Assembly (NCBI GenBank): GCA_016794585.1
Contig: JAEUJM010000011.1
Span: forward strand, 124,001 to 188,000
Source: Acidimicrobiales bacterium
Lineage (GTDB): Bacteria > Actinomycetota > Acidimicrobiia > Acidimicrobiales > DATDAH01
DNA length: 64,000 nucleotides
Direction: 5' to 3'
Part shown: positions 18,814 to 61,139 of the stretch, piece after piece
Numbering within the stretch: position 1 is the first letter of the stretch
How the letters are laid out: every line of letters starts with the position of its first letter
The notes under the pieces: generated by a model
Told to the model about the DNA's origin: nothing
What the model saw: the letters and a program-made list of their open reading frames with translations, nothing else
The model's database searches: none
Translations under genes and position numbers: made by a program

Positions 18814-20736
18814 TCAGCGCGGGGGCGGCGTGGGGTCCTCGCCCAGCTGCTCGGGAGTGACCGGGGCGAAGAACGATGGCTCGGCGCGCTTCGGCGGCGG
18901 GGGCGGCGGTGGTGGTGGCGGGGGCGGGGCGCCTTCCTCGGGGCCGGCCAACAGGTCGCGCACCCGCAGGGTCGGGCGTCCGCTGTTGACGTGCTCCCAC
19001 GCCGAGGCGGCGTCGGGGATCGACGCCTGCGCGCGTTGGACCGGTGGCGTGTCGGCGGTGAAGAGCTGGTCGACGTCGACGTGGGGCGCGACCTCGGGGT
19101 CCGGCGTGCCCGGTGGCGCCGCAGGGGGCAGGGGCGCCTCCGGCAGCGGTGAGGTGTCCCCCGAGAACCCCGGCATGGGGGGCAGCCCCTCGAAGGGGTC
19201 GGCCGACGGGGCCCAGTTCTCCTCGGGTGGCGTCCTGGCGGGTTCGCCGTCGTGGGCTGGAGCCACGACCGGCGGGGGCGGCGGCGGGGGAGGCGGCGGC
19301 GGAGGCGGAGGAGGCGGTGGGCTGGGTACCGCCGCGGCCGGGCTGGGGGCGACGCGTGTCGGCGGCCGGAAGGGGGGCGGCGGCACGGGGACCGACGGCG
19401 GGTCTGGCAGAGCCGTCGCGTCGCCGGCGGCAGGGGTGATCGGTGACGCGGGAGGCACGGGCGGGACGTGGGAAGGCGTCGGGTCGATTGCCGCGGCGAG
19501 GTCGTCGGCGGGCGACGCGAACGCAGGCGGAGGTTCGGCGAGGCCCAGCTCGTGGTCGGCTTCCGGCACGAGCGGCGGGGAGGACGAGCGGTCCGTGGGA
19601 AGGTCGACGGCCGGGGCCGGCGGTGCTGGCGGCGGGGGGACCACGGCGGAGGTCGGCTCGTCACGCTGGGGGCGTGGCCGCGGGCGCCGTTCGGGGGGGA
19701 CCAGCTCGGTGGCCACCGTGTCGAAGCCCGCGGGCTCGAGGAGGGGTAGGGCGGCGGGAGCCGGCGGGGGCGCGCCCAGGTCGTCGGCCGCGGGTGGGGG
19801 TGGGGCGACGATCGCGCCCAGGTCGCCGGCCGCAGGTGGGGGTGGGGGGATGATGGCGCCGAGGTCGTCGGCCGCCGATGCCGGGATGATCGCGGTGAGG
19901 TCGTCGGCCGCTGATCGGTCGACCGGGGCCGTCCCCGACGGCGCGAGCAGGGGCGGCGCCGCCATGGTGGGCGACGGCGGCGGCGGGGTGAGGGACTCCG
20001 GCGGCAGCATCGGGCCAGGGTCGGGCAGCTCGCCGAGACCCGCCAACGGTGCCCGCGGATCGGCTGCGCCCACCGGCTCGAACACGGGGGGCGGCAGCGG
20101 CGGCAGCAGCGGCGGCGCGGGCGGCTCGTCGGGCAGCGCGGGGATCTCCGACTGGCGCAGCAGGAACTGCGGCGGCTCGTCCCCTGCACCCGGTGGAGCG
20201 CCGGCGGGCACCACGTCGGACGGCGCGGGGGCCGGCGGCGGGGGAGGGGGTGGCGAGAACGTGGCCACCACCGCAGGGGCCGTGGCGTCGTCGAAGCCGG
20301 GAGCCGACCCATGGTCGGGGCCGGCGTCCGTCCGGTCGTCCCCGCCGGTCCCTGTGCCCTCGACGACCGGCGGGAGGGGAGGCAGAGCGGCATCCACGGG
20401 CGCCGAGGGCAGGCGCAGGTCCTGCTCGGTCAGCCCCTCGGTCGGGTCGGCGGTGATCGACCACTCCACCTCCACCGAGCCGGCGCCGTGCTTCTGGGAC
20501 TCCTTGGCCGCCTTGCGGCGGGCGCGCACCTCCTTCTTCAGCTCCTTCTTCGGCTTCGCCGGGGCGTTCGCCGCAGTGGTGCGCACGCCGGCAGCGGCCA
20601 GGGCGCACGCGATGCAAAAAGGTGGCTTCTTGGGCCCGAACGAGTACACCAGGCACTCGCTGCAGAACTCGTTGCCGCATTCGCGGCAGACGTCTTCTGC
20701 AGCTTCGAACTGGTGCTTCGCGCAGCGGCCCTCCAT
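18814..20736 (-). CDS. B-box-like zinc-finger protein with a very long proline-rich tail
   Basis: 640 aa. Residues 1-45 hold eight metal-type ligands (C5, H8, C17, C20, C25, C28, C41, C44) in a B-box/treble-clef-like pattern. A basic segment (KPKKELKKEVRARRKAAKESQKH, about 62-84) follows. From about 100 to the end it is Pro/Ala/Val/Asp-rich with several runs of 8 or more prolines and no hydrophobic core, so probably disordered. No transmembrane helix is seen. The zinc head resembles those of actinobacterial B-box/YIP1-type membrane proteins, but the membrane part is replaced here. Divergent from purB with a 35-bp gap. Confidence 0.65.
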   Translation of the reverse strand: MEGRCAKHQFEAAEDVCRECGNEFCSECLVYSFGPKKPPFCIACALAAAGVRTTAANAPAKPKKELKKEVRARRKAAKESQKHGAGSVEVEWSITADPTEGLTEQDLRLPSAPVDAALPPLPPVVEGTGTGGDDRTDAGPDHGSAPGFDDATAPAVVATFSPPPPPPPAPAPSDVVPAGAPPGAGDEPPQFLLRQSEIPALPDEPPAPPLLPPLPPPVFEPVGAADPRAPLAGLGELPDPGPMLPPESLTPPPPSPTMAAPPLLAPSGTAPVDRSAADDLTAIIPASAADDLGAIIPPPPPAAGDLGAIVAPPPPAADDLGAPPPAPAALPLLEPAGFDTVATELVPPERRPRPRPQRDEPTSAVVPPPPAPPAPAVDLPTDRSSSPPLVPEADHELGLAEPPPAFASPADDLAAAIDPTPSHVPPVPPASPITPAAGDATALPDPPSVPVPPPPFRPPTRVAPSPAAAVPSPPPPPPPPPPPPPPPPPVVAPAHDGEPARTPPEENWAPSADPFEGLPPMPGFSGDTSPLPEAPLPPAAPPGTPDPEVAPHVDVDQLFTADTPPVQRAQASIPDAASAWEHVNSGRPTLRVRDLLAGPEEGAPPPPPPPPPPPPKRAEPSFFAPVTPEQLGEDPTPPPR

Positions 20737-29302: not shown

Positions 29303-29552
29303 CGGACGGGAGCCGGGGGGAGCGCGGCAGCGGCACCCCCACCCCAGCCCCAGACGCCGAGCGGGACCGGCCCCGGGAGCGCCGGCCGACGACGGAGCAC
29401 CGAGCGGGTCGGCCACGGACGAGAGCCGGGGGGAGCGCGGCAGCGGCACCCCACCCCAGCCCCAGACGCCGAGGGGGACCGGCCCCGGGAGCGCCGGCCG
29501 ACGACGACGAGCACCGAGGAGGTAGGCCACGGACGGGAGCCGGGGAGCGCCG
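29303..29552. repeat. About 113-bp GC-rich tandem repeat, 2.2 copies, in a 520-bp non-coding gap
   Basis: Units begin CGGACGGGAGCCGG at 29303, CGGACGAGAGCCGG at 29416 and CGGACGGGAGCCGG at 29530. Each full copy runs through AGCGCGGCAGCGGCAC and CCCAGACGCCGAG to GCGCCGGCCGACGACG. Open frames across it change composition with the repeat and have no start signal, so I see no gene between 29160 and 29681. Confidence 0.6.
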
Positions 29553-57966: not shown

Positions 57967-58521
57967 TCACTGGTCGCTGAGGCTGCGGGCGCGGTCCAGG
58001 AGATCGGTGACCCCGAGCTCTGCCGCCCAATGGTCGAGGTAGTCCTCGTCCAGGGAGCCCTGCGCCATCGACAGGACGCCGACGACGTCCTCGATCTGGC
58101 GCTCCGAGCCGCCTGCCTTCGCCCACTCGAGCTTGGCCAGGACGGTGTCCTCGGCCGACGCGATGTAGGTCGCGAGGCCGAGGACCTCGACGGAGCGTCG
58201 TCGGGCGAACTCCTCCCGGCTGAAGGAGCGCTCCTTGCGAATGACGAGGTCGACCTTCCAGCCAGTCATCGTGTCGATCACGTTGAACTGCCCACGGTGG
58301 CGCAGGGCGTCCATGGCATCGTCCACGAAGTACCGATGACGGTCCAGGTGGTCGAGGAACCGGGTCAGCGAGCGCTCGTCGGGATCGATCACCAGGTCGA
58401 TGGCCTGGGTCGAGCGTGGCTCACCGTGGAAGCTGCTGGCCACGGAACCGGCCAGCATGTGCGGGATGGCGGCGTCGTCGAGGAGGGAGACCGTCGCTCG
58501 CAGCAGCTCGGCGGCGGTCAC
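57967..58521 (-). CDS. Nucleotidyltransferase-fold protein (AbiEii/DUF6036-like)
   Basis: 184 aa. IPHMLAGSVASSFHGEPRSTQAIDLVID matches the G-S ... D-x-D nucleotidyltransferase start, but the first catalytic acid position reads AIDL, so the pair is weakened; GWKVDLVIRKERSFSREEFARR supplies the third acid. Such proteins occur in AbiE-type toxin-antitoxin and related two-gene modules. It overlaps its small partner gene by 4 nt. Whether it is active is open. Confidence 0.65.
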   Translation of the reverse strand: MTAAELLRATVSLLDDAAIPHMLAGSVASSFHGEPRSTQAIDLVIDPDERSLTRFLDHLDRHRYFVDDAMDALRHRGQFNVIDTMTGWKVDLVIRKERSFSREEFARRRSVEVLGLATYIASAEDTVLAKLEWAKAGGSERQIEDVVGVLSMAQGSLDEDYLDHWAAELGVTDLLDRARSLSDQ

Positions 58522-58736
58522 CGGGTCAGTTCACGGTGGCCGAGGATGCGGTGCAGCTCCCTGAGGACCTCGTCGTCGGCGATGCCGGGTCGACGGGATC
58601 GGATCCCGGCGGTGGTCACGGCCATCATCTCGTCGCTCATCGACAAGGCGAGCTCGAGGCGTTCGGCCCGCGACATCGACCGGTAGATCTCGAGCTGGAC
58701 CGCTCGTGCCTCTGCACTCGTGTCGCGAGATCGCAC
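58518..58736 (-). CDS. Small partner protein of the nucleotidyltransferase
   Basis: 72 aa, helical: SAEARAVQLEIYRSMSRAERLELALSMSDEMMAVTTAGIRSRRPGIADDEVLRELHRILG. Proteins like this commonly precede AbiEii-like nucleotidyltransferases. Start GTG 58736 is chosen because TATCGT lies 7 nt upstream; a GTG at 58760 would add eight residues but lies upstream of that hexamer. The stop overlaps the next start (ATGA), so expression is coupled. Confidence 0.6.
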   Translation of the reverse strand: MRSRDTSAEARAVQLEIYRSMSRAERLELALSMSDEMMAVTTAGIRSRRPGIADDEVLRELHRILGHRELTR

Positions 58737-58743
58737 CAGGCCA

Positions 58744-58749
58744 ACGATA
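58744..58749 (-). promoter_or_regulatory. -10 hexamer TATCGT (minus), leaderless spacing
   Basis: Read on the minus strand, TATCGT is followed by 7 nt and the GTG at 58736. It decides the start of the small partner gene. Confidence 0.45.
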
Positions 58750-58798
58750 AGTGGGGGCACCGCCGCCGGCGTCCTCCCGAACCTGGGATGCTGACGCC

Positions 58799-59773: not shown

Positions 59774-59797
59774 GGGGCGGCGGCGGCGGTCTACCAG

Positions 59798-59866
59798 CGT
59801 CCGAATAGTAGGGTTTGCAGCGTCCGAATAGTAGGGTACTAACCGTCCAACTAGTACTGTTCGTTG
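59798..59866 (+). promoter_or_regulatory. Three tandem 23-bp repeats ending at a start codon
   Basis: CGTCCGAATAGTAGGGT at 59798 and 59821 and CGTCCAACTAGTACTGT at 59844, each exactly 23 bp from the next. Each copy carries a -10-like hexamer (TAGGGT, TAGGGT, TACTGT); the last (59855-59860) is 7 nt before the ATG at 59868. Iterated operator or stacked promoters for the ATPase gene. Confidence 0.65.
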
Positions 59867-59867
59867 C

Positions 59868-61139
59868 ATGAGCTACCAGGCGCGCATCGTGGATGGCGAG
59901 CTCGACGAGCTGCTTGCGGGTCTGCCCGCGGTCTCGTTGGAGGGTCCCCGGGCCGTTGGCAAGACCGAGACGGCGAAGCGTCGCGCGGCAACCATCTTCA
60001 GGCTCGACGACCCCGGGCAGCTCGAGATCCTCCGTGCCGCGCCGGACCGCCTGACATCAGGCGAGACCCCGGTGCTGATCGACGAATGGCAGCGCCTCCC
60101 GTCCTCGTGGGATCTGGTGCGCCGCGCCGTCGATCGCGACCCGGCACCGGCGCGGTTCCTGCTCACGGGTTCGGCAGCGCCAACGGAGGCGCCGGTCCAT
60201 TCCGGCGCGGGGCGGATCGTGACCGTGCGCATGCGGCCGATGTCGCTCGCCGAGCGCGGCATCGAGGCGCCGTCGGTGCGGCTGGGCGACCTCCTCAGCG
60301 GCTCACGACCGGCGGTGGCCGGGGCCACGACCGTCGGGTTGGCGGAGTACGCCGCGGAGATCACGGCGTCGGGATTCCCCGCCATCCGCCCACTGTCCGG
60401 TCGACTCCTCCGGTCCCAGCTCGACGGCTACCTCGATCGGATCGTCGAGCGCGACGTCGCCGACATCGGGCACCGGGTTCGGGATCGGGGCTCGCTTCGT
60501 CGATGGCTCACCGCCTACGCAGCGGCGTCCTCCACGACCGCCTCGTTCGAGACCATCCGGGACGCGGCGTCAGCGGGCGAGAACGACAAGCCGGCGAAGA
60601 CGACCACGGGCCCGTACCGGACCACCCTGGAGCAGCTCTGGATGATCGAGGACGTCCCGGCATGGGCACCCGCCCGGCATCGGCTGCGTCGTCTCGGTGT
60701 GTCGCCCGTCCACCAGCTGGCCGATCCGGCCCTCGCCGCCCGCCTCTTGGGCGTCGATGTCGACGCACTGCTCGAGGACCGACCGGCGGGGCCGCCGATG
60801 CCCCGCGACGGCACCTTGCTGGGAGCCCTGTTCGAGTCCCTCGTGACGCTCTCCGTCCGCACCTACGCCCAGGCCCACGAAGCGCACGTCCGCCACCTGC
60901 GCACCCGGGGCGGCGAGCACGAGGTCGACCTCATCATCGTGCGCGGCGATGGCCGCATCGTGGCCCTGGAGGTCAAGCTCGCGGCGACTGTTCGCGACCA
61001 GGACGTGCGCCATCTCCGGTGGCTCGCGGACACGATCGGCGACGATCTCCTCGATGCCGCCATCGTCACCACCGGCACCGAGGCATATCGGCGAGTCGAC
61101 GGCATCGCCGTGATCCCGGCGGCGCTGCTCGCCGCTTGA
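59868..61139 (+). CDS. AAA ATPase with DUF4143-type C-terminal domain
   Basis: 423 aa. Walker A GPRAVGKT (26-33), Walker B VLIDEWQRLP, sensor LLTGSAAP, and winged-helix-like middle part. The C-terminal domain contains HEVDLIIVRGDGRIVALEVKLA, a PD-(D/E)xK-like nuclease arrangement seen in DUF4143 proteins. Such ATPases are often horizontally acquired, of unknown role, and tied to defence or toxin-like functions. The promoter is a triple 23-bp repeat found nowhere else in the window. Confidence 0.8.
   Translation: MSYQARIVDGELDELLAGLPAVSLEGPRAVGKTETAKRRAATIFRLDDPGQLEILRAAPDRLTSGETPVLIDEWQRLPSSWDLVRRAVDRDPAPARFLLTGSAAPTEAPVHSGAGRIVTVRMRPMSLAERGIEAPSVRLGDLLSGSRPAVAGATTVGLAEYAAEITASGFPAIRPLSGRLLRSQLDGYLDRIVERDVADIGHRVRDRGSLRRWLTAYAAASSTTASFETIRDAASAGENDKPAKTTTGPYRTTLEQLWMIEDVPAWAPARHRLRRLGVSPVHQLADPALAARLLGVDVDALLEDRPAGPPMPRDGTLLGALFESLVTLSVRTYAQAHEAHVRHLRTRGGEHEVDLIIVRGDGRIVALEVKLAATVRDQDVRHLRWLADTIGDDLLDAAIVTTGTEAYRRVDGIAVIPAALLAA

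Follow-up and report, generated by a model that had tools for sequence, protein, structure and literature searches.

Which factor reads a strictly periodic repeat array that lies directly in front of a gene for a predicted ATPase-nuclease, and to what end? The question is raised by a 64,000-nucleotide stretch from an Acidimicrobiales bacterium (assembly GCA_016794585.1, contig JAEUJM010000011.1, positions 124,001 to 188,000; hereafter the window, with position 1 as its first letter), in which three 23-bp direct repeats precede an AAA_14-DUF4143 gene encoding a protein of 423 amino acids (P0001). An earlier interpretation made from the letters alone (the sequence-only reading) had noticed the repeat and offered two explanations, namely stacked leaderless promoters or an iterated binding site through which the ATPase or another factor controls the gene. 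Our analysis indicates that the array is probably (at a probability of roughly 0.7) an operator of the AAA_14-DUF4143 gene, whose own product would bind it head-to-tail and repress the promoter.

The 23-bp array and its occurrence among relatives

The array occupies positions 59795 to 59863, with its three units in register at start-to-start distances of 23 and 23 bp, and Tandem Repeats Finder (TRF) independently finds a tandem repeat at 59798-59856. Units 1 and 2 are identical in the first 20 of their 23 bases, and the diverged unit 3 has 70% identity. Three copies exactly 23 bp apart, as described in the sequence-only reading, were thus confirmed, together with its -10-like hexamer in each copy, since a TANNNT hexamer is present at the equivalent position of every unit (3/3); the last copy, said there to end at the start codon, is in fact separated from the ATG at 59868 by 4 bp. 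When up to 3 mismatches were allowed, the 17-mer CGTCCGAATAGTAGGGT occurred 2 times in the window, 23 bp apart, versus 0.02 expected. In the whole 5.49-Mb genome a degenerate motif allowing 0 to 2 mismatches is found at these three sites only, and its 3-mismatch matches are rarer than those of a reversed control motif. The guanine-plus-cytosine (GC) content of the array is 0.51, compared with 0.73 for the window and 0.72 for the gene. Unit columns are numbered below from 59794 (column 1) to 59816 (column 23), in a register set from the family arrays.

Relatives were counted as distinct genes with a score of at least 150 against a hidden Markov model (HMM) of a family alignment, A1. Eighty homologue loci were taken first, from species genomes, and later ones were added from other collections. 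Many of all these loci belong to metagenome-assembled genomes; start codons of relatives were extrapolated and the register of divergent arrays was fitted. An array was called when identity at lag 23 lay above the 99.5% shuffle threshold. By this measure, a period-23 array lies upstream of 294 of the 349 relatives in total (172/211 in the first enlarged set and 122/138 in a later new sample), with a median length of 2.7 units, i.e., about three copies. In the 110 bp upstream of 74 homologues, identity at lag 23 was 0.468, compared with 0.23 to 0.27 at every other lag between 12 and 40; a 13-of-18 test was passed by 58 of these 74 loci at lag 23 and by 0 to 2 at any other lag, and no period-23 signal was found in the region 800 to 900 bp upstream or in the 110 bp downstream. 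The spelling of the unit varies widely between loci, and the period stays exactly 23. This search upstream of DUF4143 homologues, with its count of copies, had been proposed as a check in the sequence-only reading, and it recovered both the repeat and its 23-bp spacing in front of close orthologues. Judging by record titles, arrays are present in Actinomycetota, Chlorobiota, Planctomycetota, Gemmatimonadota, Chloroflexota, Spirochaetota, and others, as well as on Bacteroidota and Bacillota plasmids and in one gut phage record.

Covariation of the unit with the adjacent ATPase-nuclease

Covariation between the unit consensus and the columns of the protein was calculated for 88 loci of the window's clade as mutual information with average product correction (APC). 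The top pairs, given as protein residue and unit column, were 347-9 (z = 14.8) and 245-18 (z = 12.2), followed by 244-14 (z = 7.8), 243-18, 350-6, and 245-19; permutation maxima, global or within clusters, did not exceed 8.4, and control DNA beside the array reached 6.3. Among units with C at column 9, 29 of 35 go with R or K at residue 347, and R or K at this residue occurs with any other base just once; G at column 9 goes with H, Q, or W. Similarly, G18 is accompanied by T or S at residue 245 in 46/51 cases, T14 by R244 in 15/19, and G14 or A14 by K244. These residue-base contingencies follow the logic of base recognition. When 44 disjoint pairs of related loci were compared, 347-9 (p = 9e-5) and 245-18 (p = 6e-5) ranked 6 and 5, respectively, of 7356 tests, and the switch between R-C and H-G at residue 347 and column 9 recurs independently in several related pairs.

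Predictions were also made for unseen loci, in which the register was fixed without the tested columns. All 14 loci with R or K at residue 347 had C9, compared with 1 of 15 others (p = 1.9e-7); K244 predicted G or A at column 14 (p = 4e-6), R244 predicted T14 (p = 6e-5), and T or S at residue 245 predicted G18 (p = 1e-4). In a sister clade (155 arrays in their own register), the leading values were 347-6 (z = 11.0), 348-6 (9.0), 244-14 (8.5), and residue 245 (6.2), against a permutation maximum of 6.0, and the columns correspond to those of the window's clade. An earlier run with 85 more divergent arrays alone had stayed at the noise limit (top z of 6.5, permutations up to 6.6), and the signal was clear with the larger sample. 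Without recourse to protein data, a comparison of the units within each array showed that in both clades they resemble one another at columns 6-9 and 15-18. In the unit next to the promoter, columns 6-9 and 14-17 are retained, and columns 1-5 and 22-23 have drifted. The covariation suggests that residues 244/245 and 347, which lie in two domains, read two sub-sites about one helical turn apart. The window fits this code with R347/C9, R274/T7, K244/A14, and T245/G18 (units 1 and 2). Such covariation with the neighbouring ATPase strongly supports the view that the array is recognised by the product of this gene, rather than by another factor.

P0001 passes both curated Pfam cut-offs and thereby qualifies for the AAA_14-DUF4143 family, with PF13173 (AAA_14; E = 3.9e-12, 46.7 bits, cut-off 27) located N-terminal to PF13635 (DUF4143; E = 8.9e-24, 84.5 bits, cut-off 28.1). 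The PADLOC model PDLC04790 of the candidate defence family PDC-S01 matches residues 3-421 (E = 4.4e-76), and a PDC-S01 match is found in all 26 members of A1. The AlphaFold2 (AF2) model of P0001 has a predicted local distance difference test (pLDDT) score of 91.8, and the C-terminal domain folded alone has a score of 88.9. Structure matches of the C-terminal model are PD-(D/E)XK nucleases, namely EndoMS (Z of 8.2), McrC (Z of 8.7), Can2, and EcoRV. According to the model, this domain has the PD-(D/E)XK fold, with DNA cleavage as its predicted activity, and the catalytic D...E-x-K set of such nucleases (D354, E368, K370) is present in P0001. For residues 1-295 the best structural matches are PABY2304 (2qen; Z of 15.3 over 254 residues) and SSO1545 (2fna; Z of 14.1 over 246 residues), and CED-4 and RPP1 also match, with Z of 12 to 13; a Pfam scan at E of 0.001 gives just AAA_14 and DUF4143. 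Both observations bear on a possible membership of P0001 in the STAND NTPases, a class with a P-loop, helical, and winged-helix arrangement as in 2qen/2fna and APAF-1/CED-4. A PDB sequence search with the protein revealed no convincing relatives, and a PHROGs search with it gave no match. In the model, helices 207-219, 227-234, and 244-256 look like a helix-turn-helix, in which 244-256 would be the recognition helix judging from the order of elements. The Walker A residues G26, G31, and K32 are kept in 295/295 array-bearing genes, and E352, D354, E368, and K370 are kept in 294, 294, 293, and 288 of them. Because the Walker and PD-(D/E)XK residues persist in nearly all of these genes, a product of the P0001 type should be an active enzyme.

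Overlap with a predicted promoter and the proposed direction of control

In 68 of 103 arrays of the window's clade, a TANNNT hexamer lies 5 to 8 nt before an in-frame start codon (shuffles gave a mean of 10 and a maximum of 17); of 61 such hexamers, 47 have their first base at column 16 of the unit. The TACTGT of unit 3 ends 7 nt ahead of the ATG, a distance of the type reported for leaderless genes in high-GC bacteria (PMC3160421). No sigma-70 -35/-10 pair was found upstream of the gene. Arrays of the sister clade have no consensus -10 within the unit, and their -10-like hexamers lie near the array end without a single fixed register. From a leaderless promoter of this kind the transcript would start at the ATG, so that the array would act as DNA and not as RNA.

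The third base of the -10 hexamer falls on column 18, the column assigned to residue 245, and the protein and RNA polymerase should therefore be unable to occupy the last unit together. Together with the exact spacing, this overlap argues for cooperative head-to-tail assembly and autorepression. In the mechanism that we propose, each 23-bp unit would bind one protomer, the N terminus of a middle-domain helix (K244, T245) reading columns 14-19 and a PD-(D/E)XK-domain hairpin (R347, with residues 350 and 274) reading columns 6-9, about one helical turn away. The fixed 23 bp (2.2 turns), present three times, would let protomers assemble head-to-tail, presumably in a cooperative manner. A protomer on the last unit, which holds the predicted -10 hexamer (columns 16-21) of the leaderless promoter, would compete with RNA polymerase, and binding would repress the gene because both need the same bases. 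A potentially harmful ATPase-nuclease might be kept low in this way until the complex is disturbed by some biological trigger, and every gene would retain units whose spelling suits the recognition residues of its own product. As in self-regulated operators with iterated sites, the iterated sites are found at the gene's promoter and, to judge from covariation and out-of-sample prediction, would be recognised by its own product. The iterated binding site for control of the ATPase's own gene, the second of the two original explanations, thus gains support from the 294/349 arrays and the covariation, and its control part is suggested by the -10 overlap.

Several points weigh against an operator for autorepression. 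The evidence for repression is a predicted -10 element, and activation, or a non-regulatory role of the array, would be the other outcomes. The permutation nulls model phylogeny and descent only in part. Single-base prediction out of sample reached 52% for 245-18, compared with a 41% baseline, and for 347-9 it failed in the sister clade with a carried-over register (56% versus a 58% baseline). About 16% of the homologues, or one in six, are without an array by the lag-23 test. Finally, unit 3 of the window has C at column 18, not G, and may for this reason bind more weakly.

Among the alternatives, the protein might bind the array as proposed but activate its own weak promoter lacking a -35 element, in a positive autoregulation that works as a threshold switch. 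The absence of a sigma-70 pair upstream would suit this, and in the sister clade, given -10-like hexamers without fixed register, the array could occupy an activator position. Activation is nonetheless unlikely, since the last unit of P0001-clade arrays encloses the -10, whose third base is the contacted column 18, an arrangement that favours competition, and since actinobacterial promoters often show TANNNT alone (PMC3160421). Slightly less likely is an array that serves as substrate as well as operator and is cleaved or nicked by the PD-(D/E)XK domain, e.g., for moving or copying the gene or for a self/non-self check. Residue 347 does lie in a hairpin just ahead of the catalytic E352/D354, the catalytic set is kept in 288 to 294 of 295 genes, and many paralogues per genome (17 in G033, 12 in G034) with a patchy distribution suggest mobility. 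However, the unit stands to one side of the gene only and was found neither elsewhere in the genome nor in the flanks, so that there is no second end or target, and intact arrays coexist with intact nucleases.

The first of the original explanations, stacked leaderless promoters that offer RNA polymerase reiterated -10 elements with no regulator, holds in part: TANNNT occurs in each unit of the window, and the last one stands at a leaderless distance from the start. As the whole explanation it is very improbable. Promoters alone cannot account for the kept period, because the sister-clade arrays lack a consensus -10 in the unit; they cannot produce covariation with a protein; the conserved columns 6-9 fall outside the hexamer; and an array on a Bacteroides plasmid, GCCAAACTGCCGAATAATATTAA, precedes what appears to be a different promoter type. 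The other factor that the sequence-only reading named beside the ATPase, i.e., a separate host regulator of the kind often bound to defence-locus operators (such as RptR on three 9-bp direct repeats; PMC12255303), is scarcely credible here, as the spelling shifts with the recognition residues of the ATPase beside it, units differ among paralogues of the same genome, no neighbour gene is conserved (6/55, 4/55), and the unit was not found elsewhere in the genome.

Table 1. Features of the array and of the AAA_14-DUF4143 gene (positions in the window)
Feature	Position	Strand	Sequence or basis
Unit 1	59795..59817	+	CAGCGTCCGAATAGTAGGGTTTG
Unit 2	59818..59840	+	CAGCGTCCGAATAGTAGGGTACT
Unit 3, promoter-proximal, diverged	59841..59863	+	AACCGTCCAACTAGTACTGTTCG
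Predicted sub-site A (columns 6-9, GTCC in unit 1)	59799..59802	+	Covariation with residues 347, 350, 274
Sub-site A counterparts, units 2 and 3	59822-59825, 59845-59848	+	
Predicted sub-site B (columns 14-18, AGTAG in unit 1)	59807..59811	+	Covariation with residues 244, 245
Sub-site B counterparts, units 2 and 3	59830-59834, 59853-59857	+	
-10-type hexamer TACTGT of predicted leaderless promoter (unit 3, columns 16-21)	59855..59860	+	Sequence and family statistics
TAGGGT counterparts of the hexamer, units 1 and 2	59809-59814, 59832-59837	+	
AAA_14-DUF4143 ATPase-nuclease gene (P0001), 423 aa	59868..61139	+	Pfam and PADLOC matches
Walker A GPRAVGKT, residues 26-33	59943..59966	+	G26, G31, K32 in 295/295 array-bearing genes
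Codons K244 and T245, start of predicted helix 244-256	60597..60602	+	Covary with columns 14, 15, 18, 19
Codon R347, hairpin between predicted strands 340-346 and 352-358	60906..60908	+	Covaries with column 9
PD-(D/E)XK motif residues E352, D354, E368, K370	60921..60977	+	Conservation and predicted fold

Probable private specificity, known systems, and surroundings

In a complete genome with 14 paralogues, the one unit searched was present only at its own gene, plus one 2-mismatch match elsewhere. Searches of the flanks for units gave a mean of 0.635, compared with 0.631 for shuffled units, and paralogues within one genome carry different units. Because the unit is not found elsewhere and the units of paralogues differ, control would be exerted in cis with private specificity and not through a regulon; a regulon was rejected after the window's own genome had been searched for the motif and the 14-paralogue genome for one of its units. 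Cross-regulation between paralogues of a single genome is improbable, since the unit spelling of each gene matches its own recognition residues. At 55 loci no conserved neighbour gene was found, the largest clusters being DUF4143 paralogues (6/55) and one further family (4/55). Other candidates that were considered and rejected are mobile-element ends or a transposable element with terminal repeats (no downstream array, and no unit in the flanks above shuffles), a toxin-antitoxin or controller-protein operon (no conserved adjacent partner gene at the 55 loci), and an RNA-level element (no Rfam match was obtained, and the predicted transcript of leaderless loci starts downstream of the array).

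It is tempting to go one step further, to a self-typed unit in which a single polypeptide would be sensor ATPase, nuclease, and sequence-specific repressor, with the nuclease hairpin as the part that reads the operator. The operator-bound assembly would be the inactive nuclease, a sentry on its own promoter, and its release upon infection or on arrival in a naive cell would both derepress and activate it. We regard this extension as doubtful. If true, the many copies of a genome would fall into immunity or incompatibility groups according to their array spelling and recognition residues.

Type II restriction-modification controller (C) proteins and autoregulated toxin-antitoxin operons limit a harmful activity through an operator at their own promoter; here, in contrast, regulator and effector would be one polypeptide without a conserved partner. 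The Rep proteins of iteron plasmids repress themselves by binding direct repeats, each about two helical turns long, immediately ahead of their own gene. The present array shares this arrangement, but the array genes are mostly chromosomal and encode a P-loop ATPase with a nuclease domain, and no replication role is indicated; as regards the origin function of an iteron plasmid replicon, the P0001 gene sits in a 224-kb contig of the 5.49-Mb genome. Archaeal STAND-like (signal transduction ATPases with numerous domains) proteins PABY2304 and SSO1545 resemble the modelled fold of residues 1-295, and their listed matches stop short of the C-terminal PD-(D/E)XK domain. The nearest described case is RptR (PMC12255303), in which three direct repeats over the -10 of a phage-defence-island promoter are bound by a repressor. 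RptR differs in being a separate small regulator with 9-bp repeats that contain a TAGCTA palindrome, whereas the present array would be read by the ATPase-nuclease, and palindromes are not in excess in 23-bp units.

PDC-S01, an ATPase fused to PD-(D/E)XK (PMC12988326), is matched by P0001 over its full length. The literature passages searched on this family describe domains and distribution, and neither an upstream array nor self-recognition was found in them. PMC12988326 ranks the family fourth in frequency among prokaryotic defence systems, with 29,494 bacterial and 9,986 archaeal instances (archaeal members fall outside our samples), and states that validation is pending for most such defence candidates. 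PDC-S01 is a suspected anti-phage family, and a defence role of P0001 is putative. No publication on the upstream array was found in the literature searched, which omits most subscription journals and preprints, and the mentions of DUF4143 and COG1373 found there were in papers on unrelated subjects. The array is the first concrete handle on the family found here, comprising a candidate DNA target, predicted reading residues, and a simple specificity code. It would turn "function unknown" into a bench question of binding and repression at the own promoter, cutting, and release. When the gene is tested in a foreign host without its native array, the nuclease may be expressed in an unregulated manner. 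In addition, 23-bp arrays could be used as a marker in annotating start sites and family members.

Outside the clade, DUF4143 genes with an A1 score below 150 do not follow the 23-bp rule. A strong palindrome on the promoter side is present in 51% of them (shuffles, 2%), and repeats of 32 or 33 bp occur in a few. Because these genes carry palindromes or 32/33-bp repeats instead, operator-like repeats seem general across the DUF4143 superfamily, with an architecture that differs by clade.

As individual observations, the second DUF4143 gene of the window's own genome (L170; G000:C15:62547-63011, minus strand, open frame of 383 aa) has at its start an inverted repeat of the type GTAAATCC...GGATTTCAC in place of 23-bp direct repeats. 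Promoter-side repeats of other DUF4143 clades (L126, L129, L130, L153, L207, L210) are 33 bp long, in a Collinsella plasmid and a Treponema genome, or 32 bp long, in Spirochaetota, and a 19-bp period was seen at L062 and L065. DUF4143 matches per single genome number 17 (G033), 12 (G034), 14 (G206), and 27 (G353). In the window, a minus-strand gene at 57967-58521, encoding a 184-aa protein without a Pfam match, overlaps by 4 bp another minus-strand gene at 58518-58760, whose 80-aa product has a sub-threshold match to PF18993 (Rv0078B-related antitoxin; 23.8 bits, cut-off 27.1); the two are possibly a small toxin-antitoxin-like pair. Further tandem repeats of the window are located at 29303-29545 (112-bp unit, 2.1 copies, 93% matches) and at 19771-19915, where a 42-bp repeat (2.5 copies) adjoins a 36-bp repeat (1.9 copies).
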